Positions 16,734 to 22,681 of a stretch of 64,000 bases of DNA are shown here, one piece after another. A program made the translations under genes and the position numbers. Below the pieces are notes generated by a model. It did no database searches and was not told the DNA's origin. It was given only the letters and a program-made list of their open reading frames with translations. The stretch's first letter is position 1. Each line of letters starts with the position of its first letter. This stretch comes from Rehaibacterium terrae (GTDB lineage Bacteria; Pseudomonadota; Gammaproteobacteria; Xanthomonadales; Xanthomonadaceae), in the NCBI RefSeq assembly GCF_014202935.1, contig NZ_JACHHX010000003.1, forward strand, positions 62,001 through 126,000, given 5' to 3'.

Positions 16734-16746
16734 CAGGAGCTCCCCC

Positions 16747-17673
16747 ATGTCCCTCGACCCCGCCCTGCGCGCCCGCATCGACGCGCTGCTCACCGACCAC
16801 CGCGTCGTCCTGTTCATGAAGGGCGACCCGTCCGCGCCGCGCTGCGGTTTCTCGGCCAAGGCCGCCGGCATCCTCGATGGCCTGGGCGTGGAGTACGCCA
16901 GCGTCGACGTGCTGCAGGACCCGGAGATCCGCGAGGGCATCAAGCTCTACGGCAGCTGGCCGACCATCCCGCAGCTGTACGTCGAGCGCGAGCTGGTCGG
17001 CGGCAGCGACATCATCGAGCAGCTGCTCAACAGCGGCGAGCTGCATGAGCTGCTCGGCCTGCCCAAGCCGGACCGCACCGCGCCGACCCTGCACGTCACC
17101 GCCGCCGCCGCCGCCGCGATCCGCAACGCGCTGGCCAACAGCGATCCGGGGCTGGGCCTGCACCTGTCGGTCGATCCGCGCTTCAACGCCCAGTTCCAGC
17201 TCAAGCCGGTGACCGGGCAGGAGATCGTCGCCGAGGCCGCCGGCATCCGCTTCCATCTGGACCTTGCCAGCGCGCCGCGCGCCAACGGCATCGAGATCGA
17301 CTGGGTCGAGGACATGCGCGGCGCCGGCCTGTCGATCCGCAACCCGAACGCGCCGCCGCCGGTGCAGCCGATCGAGGTCGAGGCGCTGCGCGACCGTCTC
17401 GCCGCCGGCGACATCACCGTGATCGACGTGCGTCCGGCCGAGGCCCGCGCCTTGGCTCCGTTCCCGGGTGCCGAGGTGCTGGACGAGGACAGCCGCGCCC
17501 GTCTCGCCGCGCTGCCCAAGGACCGCGCGCTGGCCTTCCTCTGCCATCACGGCCATTCCAGCCGCCAGGCGGCCGAGCATTTCCGCGGGCTGGGCTTCCG
17601 CAACCTGTACAACGTCGAGGGCGGTATCGACGCCTGGTCGCAGCGCATCGACCCGTCGGTGCCACGGTACTGA
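16747..17673 (+). CDS. CGFS monothiol glutaredoxin fused to a cysteine-less A-type-carrier-like domain and a rhodanese
   Basis: A 308-residue cytoplasmic protein with three parts. Residues 1-107 are a Grx4/GrxD-like monothiol glutaredoxin with active site C33-G-F-S, the class that binds [2Fe-2S] clusters with glutathione. Residues about 112-203 resemble the IscA/HesB (A-type carrier) fold (HVTAAAAAAIRNAL, FQLKPV, IEIDWVEDM) but contain none of its cluster-binding cysteines. Residues 207-308 are a rhodanese domain with an intact active-site C266-H-H-G-H-S-S. A Fe-S trafficking or sulfur-transfer role is a reasonable inference. The fusion is known in xanthomonads as an extended Grx4 protein, but its mechanism is not settled. 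The gene is monocistronic, with an SD-like AGGAG upstream. Confidence 0.88.
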   Translation: MSLDPALRARIDALLTDHRVVLFMKGDPSAPRCGFSAKAAGILDGLGVEYASVDVLQDPEIREGIKLYGSWPTIPQLYVERELVGGSDIIEQLLNSGELHELLGLPKPDRTAPTLHVTAAAAAAIRNALANSDPGLGLHLSVDPRFNAQFQLKPVTGQEIVAEAAGIRFHLDLASAPRANGIEIDWVEDMRGAGLSIRNPNAPPPVQPIEVEALRDRLAAGDITVIDVRPAEARALAPFPGAEVLDEDSRARLAALPKDRALAFLCHHGHSSRQAAEHFRGLGFRNLYNVEGGIDAWSQRIDPSVPRY

Positions 17674-17760: not shown

Positions 17761-17784
17761 CCGTCCAACGAGGTGAGGGGCACG

Positions 17785-18090
17785 ATGCGCACGATGTTGC
17801 TGTTGCTGCTGGCCGCGCTGCTGGCCGGCTGTGGAGGCCGCAGCGCCGACGCTTGGGCGGTGTGCGAGGCCGCCATCGCCGAGCGCCTGGCCGGCAAGAC
17901 CTACCGGCTCGATCCCAAGGCCATCCGGGCCAGCGCCCGCGAGGAGGGCGAAAACGTGCTGGTCCTGAGCGGCGAGGTCGTGCTCGACCCGGGCATGACC
18001 CACGAGCAGCGGCAGACCCTGGAGTGCAAGGCCCGCTTCACGCCGGGGCAGGCCAGGCCGGACGTGATTTCGCTCAACTTCGTCTGGTAG
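17785..18090 (+). CDS. Small hypothetical lipoprotein
   Basis: A 101-residue protein with a lipoprotein signal peptide (TMLLLLLAALLAGCGG, lipobox LAGC). ATG 17785 is preferred over an in-frame GTG at 17773 because the purine-rich AGGTGAGGGG stretch then serves as its ribosome-binding site. The mature part has two cysteines (AVCEAAIAE and TLECKARF) that could form a disulfide, and a short beta-rich core. I do not recognise the family. The protein is probably anchored in a membrane facing the periplasm. Confidence 0.65.
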   Translation: MRTMLLLLLAALLAGCGGRSADAWAVCEAAIAERLAGKTYRLDPKAIRASAREEGENVLVLSGEVVLDPGMTHEQRQTLECKARFTPGQARPDVISLNFVW

Positions 18091-18095
18091 CAGGG

Positions 18096-18182
18096 CGGGA
18101 ACCGGAAACCGGAAGAGCGGGGCGTGGGGTGTTCCGACCGAGCACGCGCAGCGCGCGGCCCATTTCCGGTGTCCGATTTCCG
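18096..18182. repeat. Inverted GGGAACCGG/CCGATTTCC element between convergent genes
   Basis: Related units GGGAACCGGAAACCGG (from 18096) and TTTCCGGTGTCCGATTTCCG (to 18182) face each other across about 45 bp. They lie between the small lipoprotein gene and the oppositely oriented SGNH hydrolase gene. The layout parallels the inverted repeat at 1916-1990, so it probably acts as a bidirectional terminator. Confidence 0.5.
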
Positions 18183-18186
18183 AGGC

Positions 18187-18885
18187 TCAGCGCCGCGACA
18201 GCAATCGCCGTGCGACCGGCAGCGCCAGCGCCGTCCACTCGCGGTACATCGCCGCCGACGGGTGCAGGCCGTCCTCGGCCACCATCGCCGCCTCGGCGCC
18301 GCGCGCGCGGCTCACCGGCGTCACGTCCACCCAGGCCACGCCGCGTGTTTCGCTTTCCTCGCGGTTGACCGCGTTGTAGGCGTCCAGCTCGGCCGACACA
18401 CGCGCCAGATCGCGGCCGCTGGCCTGGCCGAACGGCGTCGCGCCCCAGTCCGGGATCGACAGCACCAGCACGCGGTCGGCGCGGCCGCCGGCCAAGGCGA
18501 TGGCGCGCTTGAGCAGGGCGGCGAACTGCGCGCGGTACTCCTCCACGTCGCGGCCACGGTACTGGTTGTTGACGCCGATCAGCAGCGAGACGAAGCCGTA
18601 TTCGCCGATCGGCTCGGCAGCGTCCATCGCCGCGCTCAGCTCGTCGGTGGTCCAGCCGGTGGTGGCGATGATCCGCGGCGGCGCCAGCGCGATGCCCTCG
18701 GCGCGCAGCGCGGCGGCGAGCTGCACCGGCCAGCGGTCGTCCTCGGCCACCGCCTCGCCGATGGTGTAGCTGTCGCCGAGGGCCAGGTAGCCGATGGCCT
18801 CGTCGGCGAGCGCGGGCGTCGTGGTCATGGTCAGCAGCAGCAGATGGCGAAAAAACACGGGCAGGCTCCCCGCATCAGGCGACAT
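18187..18885 (-). CDS. Exported SGNH/GDSL hydrolase
   Basis: A 232-residue protein with a signal peptide (FFRHLLLLTMTTTPALA) and the SGNH blocks. Block I is GDSY with the nucleophilic Ser, block III is GVNNQ, and block V is DGLHPS, which supplies the catalytic Asp/His pair. Family members are esterases, lipases or carbohydrate deacetylases acting in the periplasm or outside the cell. Nothing here fixes the substrate. The start overlaps the end of the aminotransferase gene by 11 bp on the same strand, which suggests co-transcription. Confidence 0.87.
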   Translation of the reverse strand: MSPDAGSLPVFFRHLLLLTMTTTPALADEAIGYLALGDSYTIGEAVAEDDRWPVQLAAALRAEGIALAPPRIIATTGWTTDELSAAMDAAEPIGEYGFVSLLIGVNNQYRGRDVEEYRAQFAALLKRAIALAGGRADRVLVLSIPDWGATPFGQASGRDLARVSAELDAYNAVNREESETRGVAWVDVTPVSRARGAEAAMVAEDGLHPSAAMYREWTALALPVARRLLSRR

Positions 18886-20119
18886 GGCGCGCGGTCTGGC
18901 GTTCGGCGTGACGGGCGAGGGCGCGCTCGATGCGCCGGAACACTTCGCGCACGGTGTCGGCCTCGGGCAACAGCGTCACCCGGAAGTGATGGCGGTAGGG
19001 CACGTTGAAGCTGGAGCCGGGCACGATCAGCACGTCTTCTTCCTCCAGCAGCTCGACCGCGAAGCGGTGGTCGTCGAAACCGCGCAGCGCCTCGGTGTCG
19101 ACCGCCGGGAAGGCATACAGCGCACCCTGCGGCGGCACCAGCGCGAGGAAGTCGCTGGCGGCGCAGCTGTCGATCACCGCACGGCGCGATTCATACAGCC
19201 GGCCACCGGGTGCGGTGAGCGCGGTGATGGTGTCCGGGCCGGTCAGCGCGGCGGCCACGGCGAACTGGCCGGGCACGTTGGCGCACAGGCGCAGCGCGCC
19301 GAGCAGGTCGAGCGCGTGGTGGTATTCGCCGATCCGCAGCGGGTCGCCGGACAGCAGTGCCCAGCCGACCCGCCAGCCGCAGGCGCGGTGCACCTTCGAC
19401 AGCCCGCCGAAGCTCAGGCAGGGCAGGTCGTCGGCCAGCGGCGCCAGCGGCTGGAAGGCGGCACCGTCGTAGAGGATGCCGTCGTAGATCTCGTCGGCCA
19501 TCAGCAGCAGGTCGTGCTTCGCCGCGATGGCGACCAGGCGTTCGAGCAGTGCGCGCGGGTAGCTGGCGCCGGTGGGGTTGTTCGGGTTGATCAGCACCAG
19601 CGCGCGGGTGCGCGAGCTCACCAGCGATTCGATCTCGTCCGGGTCGGGCAGGAAGCCGTTGCCGGCCTCACAGCGGTAGTAGACCGGCCGGCCGTCGTTG
19701 AGGATGGTGGCGGCGCTCCACAGCGGGTAGTCGGGGCTGGGCAGCAGCACCTCGTCGCCGGGATTGAGCAGGGCGCGCAGGCTCAGATCGATCAGTTCGC
19801 TGACGCCATTGCCGACGAAGACCCGTTCCGGCGTGGCGCCATGCACGCCGCGGGCGCGGTGCTGGGCGGCGATCGCCTCGCGCGCGGCCGGCAGACCTTG
19901 CTGGTGGGTGTAGGGATCACTTTCGGCGAGGTGTTCGGCGATGGCGCGTTGCAGGTGCTCGGGGGCGCGGAAGCCGAACGCGCCGGGGTTGCCGATGTTG
20001 AGCTTGATCAGCCGGCGGCCCTGCGCTTCCAGTTCGCGGGCGCGGCGGGCCAGCTCGCCGCGGATTTCATAACGGACTTCGCCGAGGCGGGCGCGGGTGG
20101 GGACGGGCGGATGGTTCAT
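18875..20119 (-). CDS. PLP-dependent aminotransferase, class I (AlaA-like)
   Basis: A 414-residue cytoplasmic fold-type I aminotransferase. Visible features are LIKLNIGNPGAFGF (substrate loop), VFVGNGVSELIDLSLRALL, LLPSPDYPLW, INPNNPTGASY, ADEIYDGILYDG, and the PLP lysine in SFGGLSKVHRACGWRVGW. The YDG and SKVHRACGWRVGW segments fit the alanine aminotransferase AlaA group, which makes L-alanine from pyruvate and glutamate. Exact substrate preference is inferred. It is divergent from rsgA. Confidence 0.88.
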   Translation of the reverse strand: MNHPPVPTRARLGEVRYEIRGELARRARELEAQGRRLIKLNIGNPGAFGFRAPEHLQRAIAEHLAESDPYTHQQGLPAAREAIAAQHRARGVHGATPERVFVGNGVSELIDLSLRALLNPGDEVLLPSPDYPLWSAATILNDGRPVYYRCEAGNGFLPDPDEIESLVSSRTRALVLINPNNPTGASYPRALLERLVAIAAKHDLLLMADEIYDGILYDGAAFQPLAPLADDLPCLSFGGLSKVHRACGWRVGWALLSGDPLRIGEYHHALDLLGALRLCANVPGQFAVAAALTGPDTITALTAPGGRLYESRRAVIDSCAASDFLALVPPQGALYAFPAVDTEALRGFDDHRFAVELLEEEDVLIVPGSSFNVPYRHHFRVTLLPEADTVREVFRRIERALARHAERQTARHVA

Positions 20120-20295: not shown

Positions 20296-21384
20296 ATGCG
20301 ACTCGACCCCCTGACCCTCGTCCGCCTGCGCACGATCGGCTGGCCCGACGATGCCTGGGCGGAAGAGGCGCTGCGGGCCGCGCCCCGGGGGCGGCTGGCG
20401 CGGGTGGTCGAGCAGCACCGCTCCGGCTATGTGGTGTCGGTGGGCGAGGGCGAGGAATTCAGGGCGCAGGCGCCGGCGGCCTGGCTGCGGCCGCGTTTCC
20501 CGCCCGAGCAGCGCGCCTGCGTCGGCGACTGGGTGGTGCTCGACGACGAGGCCGACGAGATCCTCGCCCTGCTGCCGCGCCGCTCGCTGCTCAAGCGCGG
20601 CGCCGCCGGCGAGCACTATCGGCAGCAGCTGATCGCAGCCAACATCGATTACGTGCTGGTGGTCTGCGGCCTCGACCACGACTTCAACCCGCGCCGGCTG
20701 GAGCGCTATCTGGTGCTGGTGCAGGGCAGCGGCGCCACGCCGGTGCTGGTGTTGACCAAGGCCGACCTGTGCCAGGACCTGGAGCCGGTCACCGAGGCGC
20801 TGGCCGACATCCTGGCGCTCGGCGTCCAGGCGCATCCGGTCAATGCCAAGGATCCGGCCAGCGTCGCCGTGCTCGACCGCTACCTGCAGCCCGGCCGCAG
20901 CGTGGTACTGGTCGGCAGCTCCGGTGCCGGCAAGTCCACGCTCACCAACACCCTGCTCGGCGTCGAGAAGATGAAGACCGGCGAGGTGCGCGCGCGCGAC
21001 TCGCGCGGCCGCCACACCACCACCTGGCGTGCGCTGATCCCGCTGCCGCAGGGCGGCTGCCTGATCGACACCCCGGGCATGCGCGAACTCAAGCTCACCG
21101 GCGAGGAGCGGCTGGACGCAGGCGCCTTCGCCGACATCGAGGCGCTGGCCGCCAGTTGCCGTTTCAACGACTGCGGCCACCGGCGCGAACCCGGCTGCGC
21201 CGTGCGCGCCGCACTCGAGGCCGGCACGCTCGACGCGGATCACTACGCCAATTACCTCAAGCTGCGCGACGAACTCGCCGCTGCCGCCGGTCAGCTCGCC
21301 GCACGCCTGGCCGACAAGGCCGAGGCGAAAGTGATGGGCAAGGCACTCGACAAGCGTCTGAAGGAAAAGTACGGCCGCCGATGA
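20296..21384 (+). CDS. rsgA: Small ribosomal subunit biogenesis GTPase RsgA
   Basis: A 362-residue circularly permuted GTPase that helps mature the 30S subunit. An OB-fold N-domain (VVEQHRSGYVVSVG) is followed by the permuted G-motifs. G4 TKADLC precedes G1 GSSGAGKS (residues 207-214), and G3 DTPG follows. The C-terminal zinc knuckle uses C288, C293, H295 and C301 (CRFNDCGHRREPGC). These features are diagnostic. The gene lies 43 bp upstream of the QEGLA protein gene on the same strand. Confidence 0.96.
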   Translation: MRLDPLTLVRLRTIGWPDDAWAEEALRAAPRGRLARVVEQHRSGYVVSVGEGEEFRAQAPAAWLRPRFPPEQRACVGDWVVLDDEADEILALLPRRSLLKRGAAGEHYRQQLIAANIDYVLVVCGLDHDFNPRRLERYLVLVQGSGATPVLVLTKADLCQDLEPVTEALADILALGVQAHPVNAKDPASVAVLDRYLQPGRSVVLVGSSGAGKSTLTNTLLGVEKMKTGEVRARDSRGRHTTTWRALIPLPQGGCLIDTPGMRELKLTGEERLDAGAFADIEALAASCRFNDCGHRREPGCAVRAALEAGTLDADHYANYLKLRDELAAAAGQLAARLADKAEAKVMGKALDKRLKEKYGRR

Positions 21385-21427
21385 ACACAGCCAGGCCACG
21401 CAGACGCGGCAGGAGGCGCATGCGCCG

Positions 21428-22681
21428 ATGAACGACGCCGTCGCCCACCACGCCGCGCTCGACGCGCGCCTGGTCGAGGCGGTGCGCGGCATCCGCCTGC
21501 TGCAGACGGTGAGCTGGCCGGCGCACGTGCAGGAGGAGTTCCTCGACGGCTGGCGGCGCGGCCAGGCCAAACTGCCGCTGATCGAATACCCGGCGCTCGA
21601 TTTCGGCGAAGTGCGCGCCGAGCTCGACGCCATCCGCCTCGCCGCCGACCCCGACCACCCGCTCGGCCAGTACCTGCAGCGCACCGCCGAGAGCTGGGCG
21701 ACCGCCACGCGCCTGCTGGAATGCGCCGGCAGCGCCAGCGTCACCGACCACAGCGTGCAGCTCTACGGCCGCCCCGGCGACGTGCTGCCCGGCGGCGAGG
21801 CGACCAACCTCGACGCCGCCCGCCACTTCATCGCCCTGGCCGACGAGCTCGACCAGGACCTGCATCCGGACGAATCCGATTTCCATATCCCGGCGGCAAC
21901 GCTGCGCGACGAACTGCAGGCCGAGCTGGACCGCTTCTTCGTCCATCACAAGCTCAGCGTCGAGCTGGATCCCGAGCTGATCGCCAAGGCCGCCGCCGGC
22001 CCCACCCGCATCCGCCTGCGCGGCGGCCACGCCTTCAGCGACTACGACCGCCACCAGCTGCTCGAACACGAGGCCTTCGTGCATTCGCTGACCGCGCTCA
22101 ACGGCCGCGAGCAGCCGGTGCTCAAGTCGCTGGCGCGCACCTCGCCGCGCATCACCGCCACCCAGGAAGGGCTGGCCACCTTCGCCGAGCTGATCACCGG
22201 CGCCATCGACATCGAGCGCATGAAGCGCATCAGCCTGCGCATCCTCGCCATCGACATGGCGCTGCGCGGCGCCGACTTCATGCAGGTGTTCCGCTTCTTC
22301 CTCGACGAGGGGCAGACGCCCTCGGACAGCTTCGCCTCGGCGCAGCGCATCTACCGCGGCGTGCCGCTGACCGGCAAGGCCGCCTTCACCAAGGACAGTG
22401 TCTACCTCACCGGCCTGATCGGCGTGCACACCTTCTTCCGCTGGACGCTCAAGCACCGCCGCATCCGCCTCACCCGCCTGCTGTTCGCCGGCAAGATGAC
22501 CCTGCAGGATGTGCTCGCCTTCGAGCCGCTGTTCGACGAAGGCACGCTCGCCGAACCGCTGTACGTGCCGCCGTGGGTGCAGCGCGCGCAGGGCTTGGCC
22601 GGCATGCTCGCGTTCTCGCTGTTTGCCAACCGCATCCGCCTGGACCGCGTCGGCGCCGACGACCTCGTGCTGAGCCTGTAG
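21428..22681 (+). CDS. QEGLA-motif (DUF1704) protein, MATCAP-like metallopeptidase candidate
   Basis: A 417-residue cytoplasmic protein. The family signatures are HEAFVH (H214-E-A-F-V-H219, a HExxxH zinc motif) and QEGLATF (246-252). Bacterial members are annotated as flavohaemoglobin expression-modulating QEGLA proteins. The same domain occurs in the eukaryotic tubulin-detyrosinating carboxypeptidase MATCAP. A C-terminal exopeptidase activity is therefore possible, but no bacterial substrate is established. The gene follows rsgA and converges on maeB, 34 bp apart. Confidence 0.87.
   Translation: MNDAVAHHAALDARLVEAVRGIRLLQTVSWPAHVQEEFLDGWRRGQAKLPLIEYPALDFGEVRAELDAIRLAADPDHPLGQYLQRTAESWATATRLLECAGSASVTDHSVQLYGRPGDVLPGGEATNLDAARHFIALADELDQDLHPDESDFHIPAATLRDELQAELDRFFVHHKLSVELDPELIAKAAAGPTRIRLRGGHAFSDYDRHQLLEHEAFVHSLTALNGREQPVLKSLARTSPRITATQEGLATFAELITGAIDIERMKRISLRILAIDMALRGADFMQVFRFFLDEGQTPSDSFASAQRIYRGVPLTGKAAFTKDSVYLTGLIGVHTFFRWTLKHRRIRLTRLLFAGKMTLQDVLAFEPLFDEGTLAEPLYVPPWVQRAQGLAGMLAFSLFANRIRLDRVGADDLVLSL

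Follow-up and report, generated by a model that had tools for sequence, protein, structure and literature searches.

The window, a 64,000-nucleotide stretch of the Rehaibacterium terrae contig NZ_JACHHX010000003.1, contains a gene specifying a fusion of three domains, each related to Fe–S cluster or sulfur metabolism. The gene, its putative translation signal, and the domains it encodes are:

16735–16739, forward strand: Shine–Dalgarno-like AGGAG, 7 bp upstream of the ATG, as read from the sequence
16747–17673, forward strand: whole fusion gene, an open reading frame from the ATG at 16747 that encodes 308 amino acids plus stop in three domains, with 60 or more orthologues of the same architecture
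16771–17055, forward strand: CGFS glutaredoxin domain (class II, Grx4/GrxD type), residues ~9–103, with CGFS at 33–36 (TIGR00365, PF00462)
17071–17358, forward strand: degenerate A-type-carrier domain, residues ~109–204, without Cys (PF01521, fold match, alignment)
17377–17643, forward strand: single-domain rhodanese, residues 211–299, active-site loop CHHGHSS with Cys266 (PF00581)

The two outer domains belong to well-defined families. Specifically, Pfam Glutaredoxin (PF00462) matches residues 20–84 of the whole 308-residue protein (1.1e-18), and the glutaredoxin part exceeds the Grx4-equivalog cut-off of TIGR00365 (125.4 versus 117.1 bits). The nearest PDB folds of this domain are monothiol glutaredoxins, with E-values down to 1.6e-10. 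The CGFS motif is invariant in 43 fusion sequences, as are K25, T73, P75, G85, G86, and D88. At the other end of the protein, Rhodanese (PF00581) matches residues 211–299 (8.4e-12; 45.9 bits versus a cut-off of 22.2), and this part matches both the GlpE profile (3e-12) and the GlpE fold 1gmx (6.2e-7). Searches of the fusion protein with Pfam returned no frataxin domain and no Nfu domain (PF01106) at E-values up to 10; the PF01106 match in the genome is another gene. The initial annotation held that residues 34 to 265 lack cysteine, and this is exact: the fusion possesses only C33, in CGFS, and C266, in CHHGHSS.

The middle domain had been described as retaining IscA/HesB-like fold features, a description that both profile and model bear out. 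Fe-S_biosyn (PF01521) matches residues 115–204 above the Pfam cut-off of 26.3 bits, scoring 27.0 bits within the full-length protein and 30.6 bits when the domain is taken by itself. When the middle-domain sequence profile was run against the PDB with hmmsearch, it matched ErpA/IscA structures, with AQ_1857, Haemophilus influenzae HI1723, and IscA at about 1e-10. The AlphaFold2 model of the whole fusion, made from 43 orthologues, has a mean pLDDT of 94.9 and a pTM of 0.80, and the middle domain modeled alone has a pLDDT of 89.8. In VIA-align, the middle-domain model scores Z 11.9 with Allochromatium vinosum DsrR, 11.7 with E. coli IscA, and 10.4 with SufA, far over unrelated rows; Foldseek likewise places it among A-type folds (E 4e-6). 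The structure prediction that the initial annotation had proposed as a check therefore came out A-type-carrier-like, with Z-scores of 10–12 to DsrR, IscA, and SufA, and by sequence family and predicted fold the middle domain is A-type-carrier-like. DsrR is the best fold match, tied with IscA, and one could imagine that the domain is a regulatory module of the DsrR kind that regulates sulfur oxidation rather than cluster delivery. As summarized in PMC11406059, DsrR is an IscA-like protein that binds neither Fe nor Fe–S (Grimm et al. 2010). We find this reading highly improbable: a fold match does not give function, and sulfur oxidizers have DsrR as a free-standing protein, whereas the domain considered here is linked to a CGFS glutaredoxin on one side and a rhodanese on the other.

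What sets the middle domain apart from carriers is the manner in which its ligands have been lost. In an alignment that retains all three ligand cysteines in 18/18 ErpA-type and 12/12 IscA/SufA sequences, all three positions are empty in 41 of the 41 fusion A-type domains, two of which have a non-ligand Cys elsewhere in the domain. The four-residue loop that bears Cys-1 (xGCS) is cleanly deleted in these 41 domains, a gap that the HMMER alignments show as well. The domains also lack the C-terminal CGCG tail, and beyond the NPN motif the chain continues with the linker that leads to the rhodanese. No orthologue retains the ligands, whose retention would have spoken against the earlier description. 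We estimate that, at ~1% Cys, one 95-residue stretch has a chance of roughly 0.4 of being Cys-free, which is unremarkable alone; chance Cys loss in a single genome is ruled out by the 41/41 orthologous domains without ligands. With all three ligand cysteines gone, the domain must, as claimed, be unable to bind a cluster in the usual manner, and, judged by its sequence, the domain is not a functional A-type carrier.

In a phylogenetic tree, the fusion A-type domains form one group (support 99/98), but support is low (87/12 and 92/43) for the branches that decide where this group stands with respect to NfuA. A single Cys loss shared with NfuA is therefore indistinguishable from two separate losses. 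An acidobacterial genome that carries the fusion also encodes a second degenerate A-type protein (L121, G409:C37:48191–48478), which is NfuA-like, has P at the Cys-1 position, and weakly (92/43) adjoins the fusion group.

Where carriers have Y/F-L, the fusion A-type domain displays a conserved SAxRAxG signature of its own, and its interaction surface may, on these grounds, differ from theirs. This substitution bears on the possibility that the A-type domain promotes dimerization or oligomerization. Canonical A-type carriers form dimers. The notion is that the domain would self-associate as IscA does, allowing two glutaredoxin domains to share a bridging [2Fe-2S] cluster without collision. GrxD binds a bridging [2Fe-2S] cluster as a homodimer (PMC8593673), and the pTM of the fusion model suggests a fixed arrangement of domains. 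Nonetheless, a conserved R-A stands where the canonical helix has Y/F-L, a change that may have disrupted the canonical contact surface, and we judge a role in self-association to be distinctly unlikely.

The fusion is a core gene of the order. It is present in 375 of 398 sampled genomes (~94%) of the large order Lysobacterales/Xanthomonadales, in 331 of 343 good ones, and in 93 of 99 genera (E 1e-45 or better). A class-wide draw found it in 7/369 genomes, of which five belong to the source's order and the remaining two to a single other family. A few Myxococcota and one acidobacterial MAG carry the fusion too, and their copies likewise lack the ligands. Purifying selection acts on the A-type domain: its dN/dS lies at 0–0.19 in eight pairs of close, equally long sequences, a range comparable to that of the glutaredoxin part. 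Several close pairs show faster divergence in the rhodanese than in the A-type part; the rhodanese dN/dS of the window protein versus L005 is invalid, as the two proteins are offset by a one-residue shift. Two other explanations were rejected. A vestigial, decaying A-type domain is ruled out by the low dN/dS in close pairs together with retention of the domain in two-domain forms, and a sequencing or frame error is ruled out by the many orthologues of the same length and architecture.

The two-domain forms are five complete orthologues, from Silanimonas, Rhodanobacter, and relatives, that end directly after the A-type domain and lack the rhodanese (L060:5001–5606, L062:5001–5612, and L070–L072:5001–5603). 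A further sequence, L073, resembles them, but its 5′ end is cut. Because some complete orthologues do without the rhodanese, the glutaredoxin plus the Cys-less A-type domain is the minimal unit, with the rhodanese an accessory. These orthologues also weigh on a reading in which the protein is a persulfide or sulfane-sulfur relay that involves no cluster: the rhodanese would be catalytic, the glutaredoxin would bind GSH or GSSH as co-substrate and release sulfur, and the A-type domain would act purely as scaffold, fixing the distance or bringing in the acceptor of the sulfur. The active-site Cys of the rhodanese is indeed kept in every three-domain orthologue, its loop resembles that of GlpE, and the rhodanese part survives by itself in one genome of the same family (G013) as a separate 108-aa gene (L109:1039–1347, G013:C1) whose product is 53% identical to the C-terminal domain of the fusion; in G013, the fused glutaredoxin/A-type part is absent and only this stand-alone rhodanese remains. 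Set against these points, natural orthologues keep the glutaredoxin and A-type domains without the rhodanese, the glutaredoxin belongs to the CGFS class (TIGR00365), which has little redox activity, and it is the rhodanese that diverges faster. We therefore consider a cluster-free relay unlikely.

The fusion gene coexists with genes for other carriers. The source genome also encodes ErpA, an IscA/SufA-type carrier, NfuA (L087), and a stand-alone GrxD (L002, 49% identical). Most of 40 close relatives similarly carry a stand-alone GrxD and an NfuA-type protein, and thus the fusion is not a simple replacement for either. Among the same 40 relatives, there are four genomes from three families (G029, G030, G031, and G039) in which the fusion, with CGFS intact and A-type ligands absent, is the sole CGFS glutaredoxin over the TIGR00365 cut-off. 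Conversely, of nine relatives without a full-length fusion, eight possess a stand-alone GrxD over the cut-off, and the ninth, G038, has a weaker match. That the fusion can be the only CGFS glutaredoxin over the cut-off, and that most of the relatives lacking it have GrxD, suggests from gene content that it can fill the GrxD role.

Genome context provides a link to ErpA in one lineage. Specifically, in L057 and L059, which are near-identical and count as one lineage, the fusion gene starts 91 and 80 bp, respectively, past the stop codon of a canonical erpA, both genes having the same orientation. A perfect inverted repeat, GGAGCGCCGACCGGCGCG...CGCGCCGGTCGGCGCTCC, is located between the two genes in L057 (4912–5004) and is partly altered in L059; with this repeat between them, erpA and the fusion need not be co-transcribed. 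The L059 MAG is labeled Rheinheimera, probably wrongly: its sequence around the fusion is GC-rich and almost the same as that of L057, which is a gammaproteobacterial MAG from Baikal. Apart from this erpA, no Isc or Suf genes were found within ~5 kb of the fusion in the order. Matches to SufC near the fusion reflect generic ABC-ATPase similarity (24–30% identity) and were discarded. Elsewhere, including in the window, the neighbors are housekeeping genes: an aminotransferase, an SGNH-type hydrolase (assigned by eye), RsgA, QEGLA, and malic enzyme. In ~40 relatives, the genes for the aminotransferase and the SGNH-type hydrolase are found upstream of the fusion and in its orientation; in the window (17773–20119) they are downstream on the opposite strand, and this flipped order suggests a local inversion around the fusion gene. 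A few genes from the fusion, at 21362–22678 of the window, is a gene for a QEGLA-motif protein (flavohemoglobin expression-modulating) that scores just below the TIGR02421 cut-off.

How could a domain stripped of its ligands remain useful? Every metal-binding Cys has been lost, yet the domain is strongly selected in nearly all genomes of the order, and for this reason the Cys-less A-type domain is probably a docking handle, not a carrier. The degenerate A-type domain of NfuA binds no cluster and targets NfuA to apo-proteins, and both NfuA domains are needed in vivo (PMC8593673, PMC11327457). NfuA also interacts with ErpA (PMC8593673, PMC11327457). E. coli GrxD gives its [2Fe-2S] cluster one-way to ErpA and, less efficiently, to SufA, and yeast Grx5 interacts with Isa1/Isa2 (PMC11327457). 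Because of the NfuA, GrxD–ErpA, and Grx5–Isa1/Isa2 precedents, a cluster carrier equipped with a docking handle is the best reading of the protein. We propose, at somewhat better than even odds (a probability of roughly 0.55), that the fusion is an adaptor for Fe–S cluster trafficking that follows the plan of NfuA but carries another head, and that its A-type domain serves in docking.

The mechanism that we infer covers cluster binding, docking onto a particular partner, and a sulfur role for the rhodanese. Specifically, the CGFS glutaredoxin domain would carry a glutathione-ligated [2Fe-2S] cluster, as GrxD does. The Cys-less A-type domain, itself without a cluster, would recognize the partners of A-type carriers, namely client apo-proteins and probably ErpA, the latter by A-type/A-type association. 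Docking would set the glutaredoxin cluster beside the acceptor, and transfer to ErpA or to clients could then occur with higher rate or specificity. Finally, the rhodanese, dispensable in some lineages, could supply or remove sulfane sulfur at the same site. The initial annotation had offered dimerization or partner docking as roles for the middle domain. By analogy, partner docking appears to be the best supported, as NfuA provides a model, erpA is a neighbor in one lineage, and orthologues with glutaredoxin and A-type domains exist without a rhodanese. A more ambitious version would make the fusion a single-chain machine for cluster repair or conversion, in which the A-type domain grips a partner, either an A-type carrier or a damaged Fe–S client, the glutaredoxin gives [2Fe-2S], and the rhodanese adds sulfane sulfur, all coupled on one docked partner; we deem this very unlikely. 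Beyond what had been noted before, the Cys-1 loop is deleted, not substituted, the gene is core to the order, and the rhodanese is optional.

Comparison with known systems locates the fusion among them. In the literature searched, mostly outside subscription journals, no study addressed the function of a glutaredoxin/A-type/rhodanese protein. A bacterial CGFS “frataxin-rhodanese-GRX” fusion has been listed, with a suggested link to Fe–S metabolism (Alves et al. 2009, PMC2679010). Compared by description, that protein likewise combines a CGFS glutaredoxin, a rhodanese, and a third Fe–S-related domain; there the third domain is named frataxin, whereas here it is Fe-S_biosyn by Pfam. The listed protein may be the present architecture under another name, or it may be a different fusion. 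GrxD, Grx4, and Grx5 share with the fusion a glutaredoxin over the TIGR00365 cut-off with invariant CGFS and GSH-site residues, but stand-alone GrxD has neither an A-type nor a rhodanese part. IscA, SufA, and ErpA have the same fold and, as far as the NPN motif, largely the same sequence pattern; unlike them, the fusion domain lacks the three ligand cysteines (C...CGC) and does not stand alone. DsrR has the same Cys-less A-type fold and is a stand-alone protein of the dsr pathway with no glutaredoxin or rhodanese, whereas here the domain is fused on both sides.

The closest parallel is NfuA of E. coli and Azotobacter vinelandii, in which a degenerate A-type domain without ligand cysteines is likewise fused to another cluster-binding domain. 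In the fusion, the head is a CGFS glutaredoxin rather than an Nfu domain, the head comes first, reversing the order, and a rhodanese is added; furthermore, the loop is deleted in the fusion but has its full length in NfuA, where T or P occupies the Cys position. Most likely, to judge by this analogy, the fusion works like NfuA but, having no Nfu domain, is not NfuA. Glutaredoxins and A-type carriers are known trafficking partners, and here they reside in one polypeptide whose A-type part is ligand-stripped as in NfuA. If docking is indeed its role, the degenerate A-type domain would prove to be a targeting module that can be reused by joining it to various cluster carriers, and the fusion would offer a clean system for mapping the surface by which A-type carriers recognize their clients.
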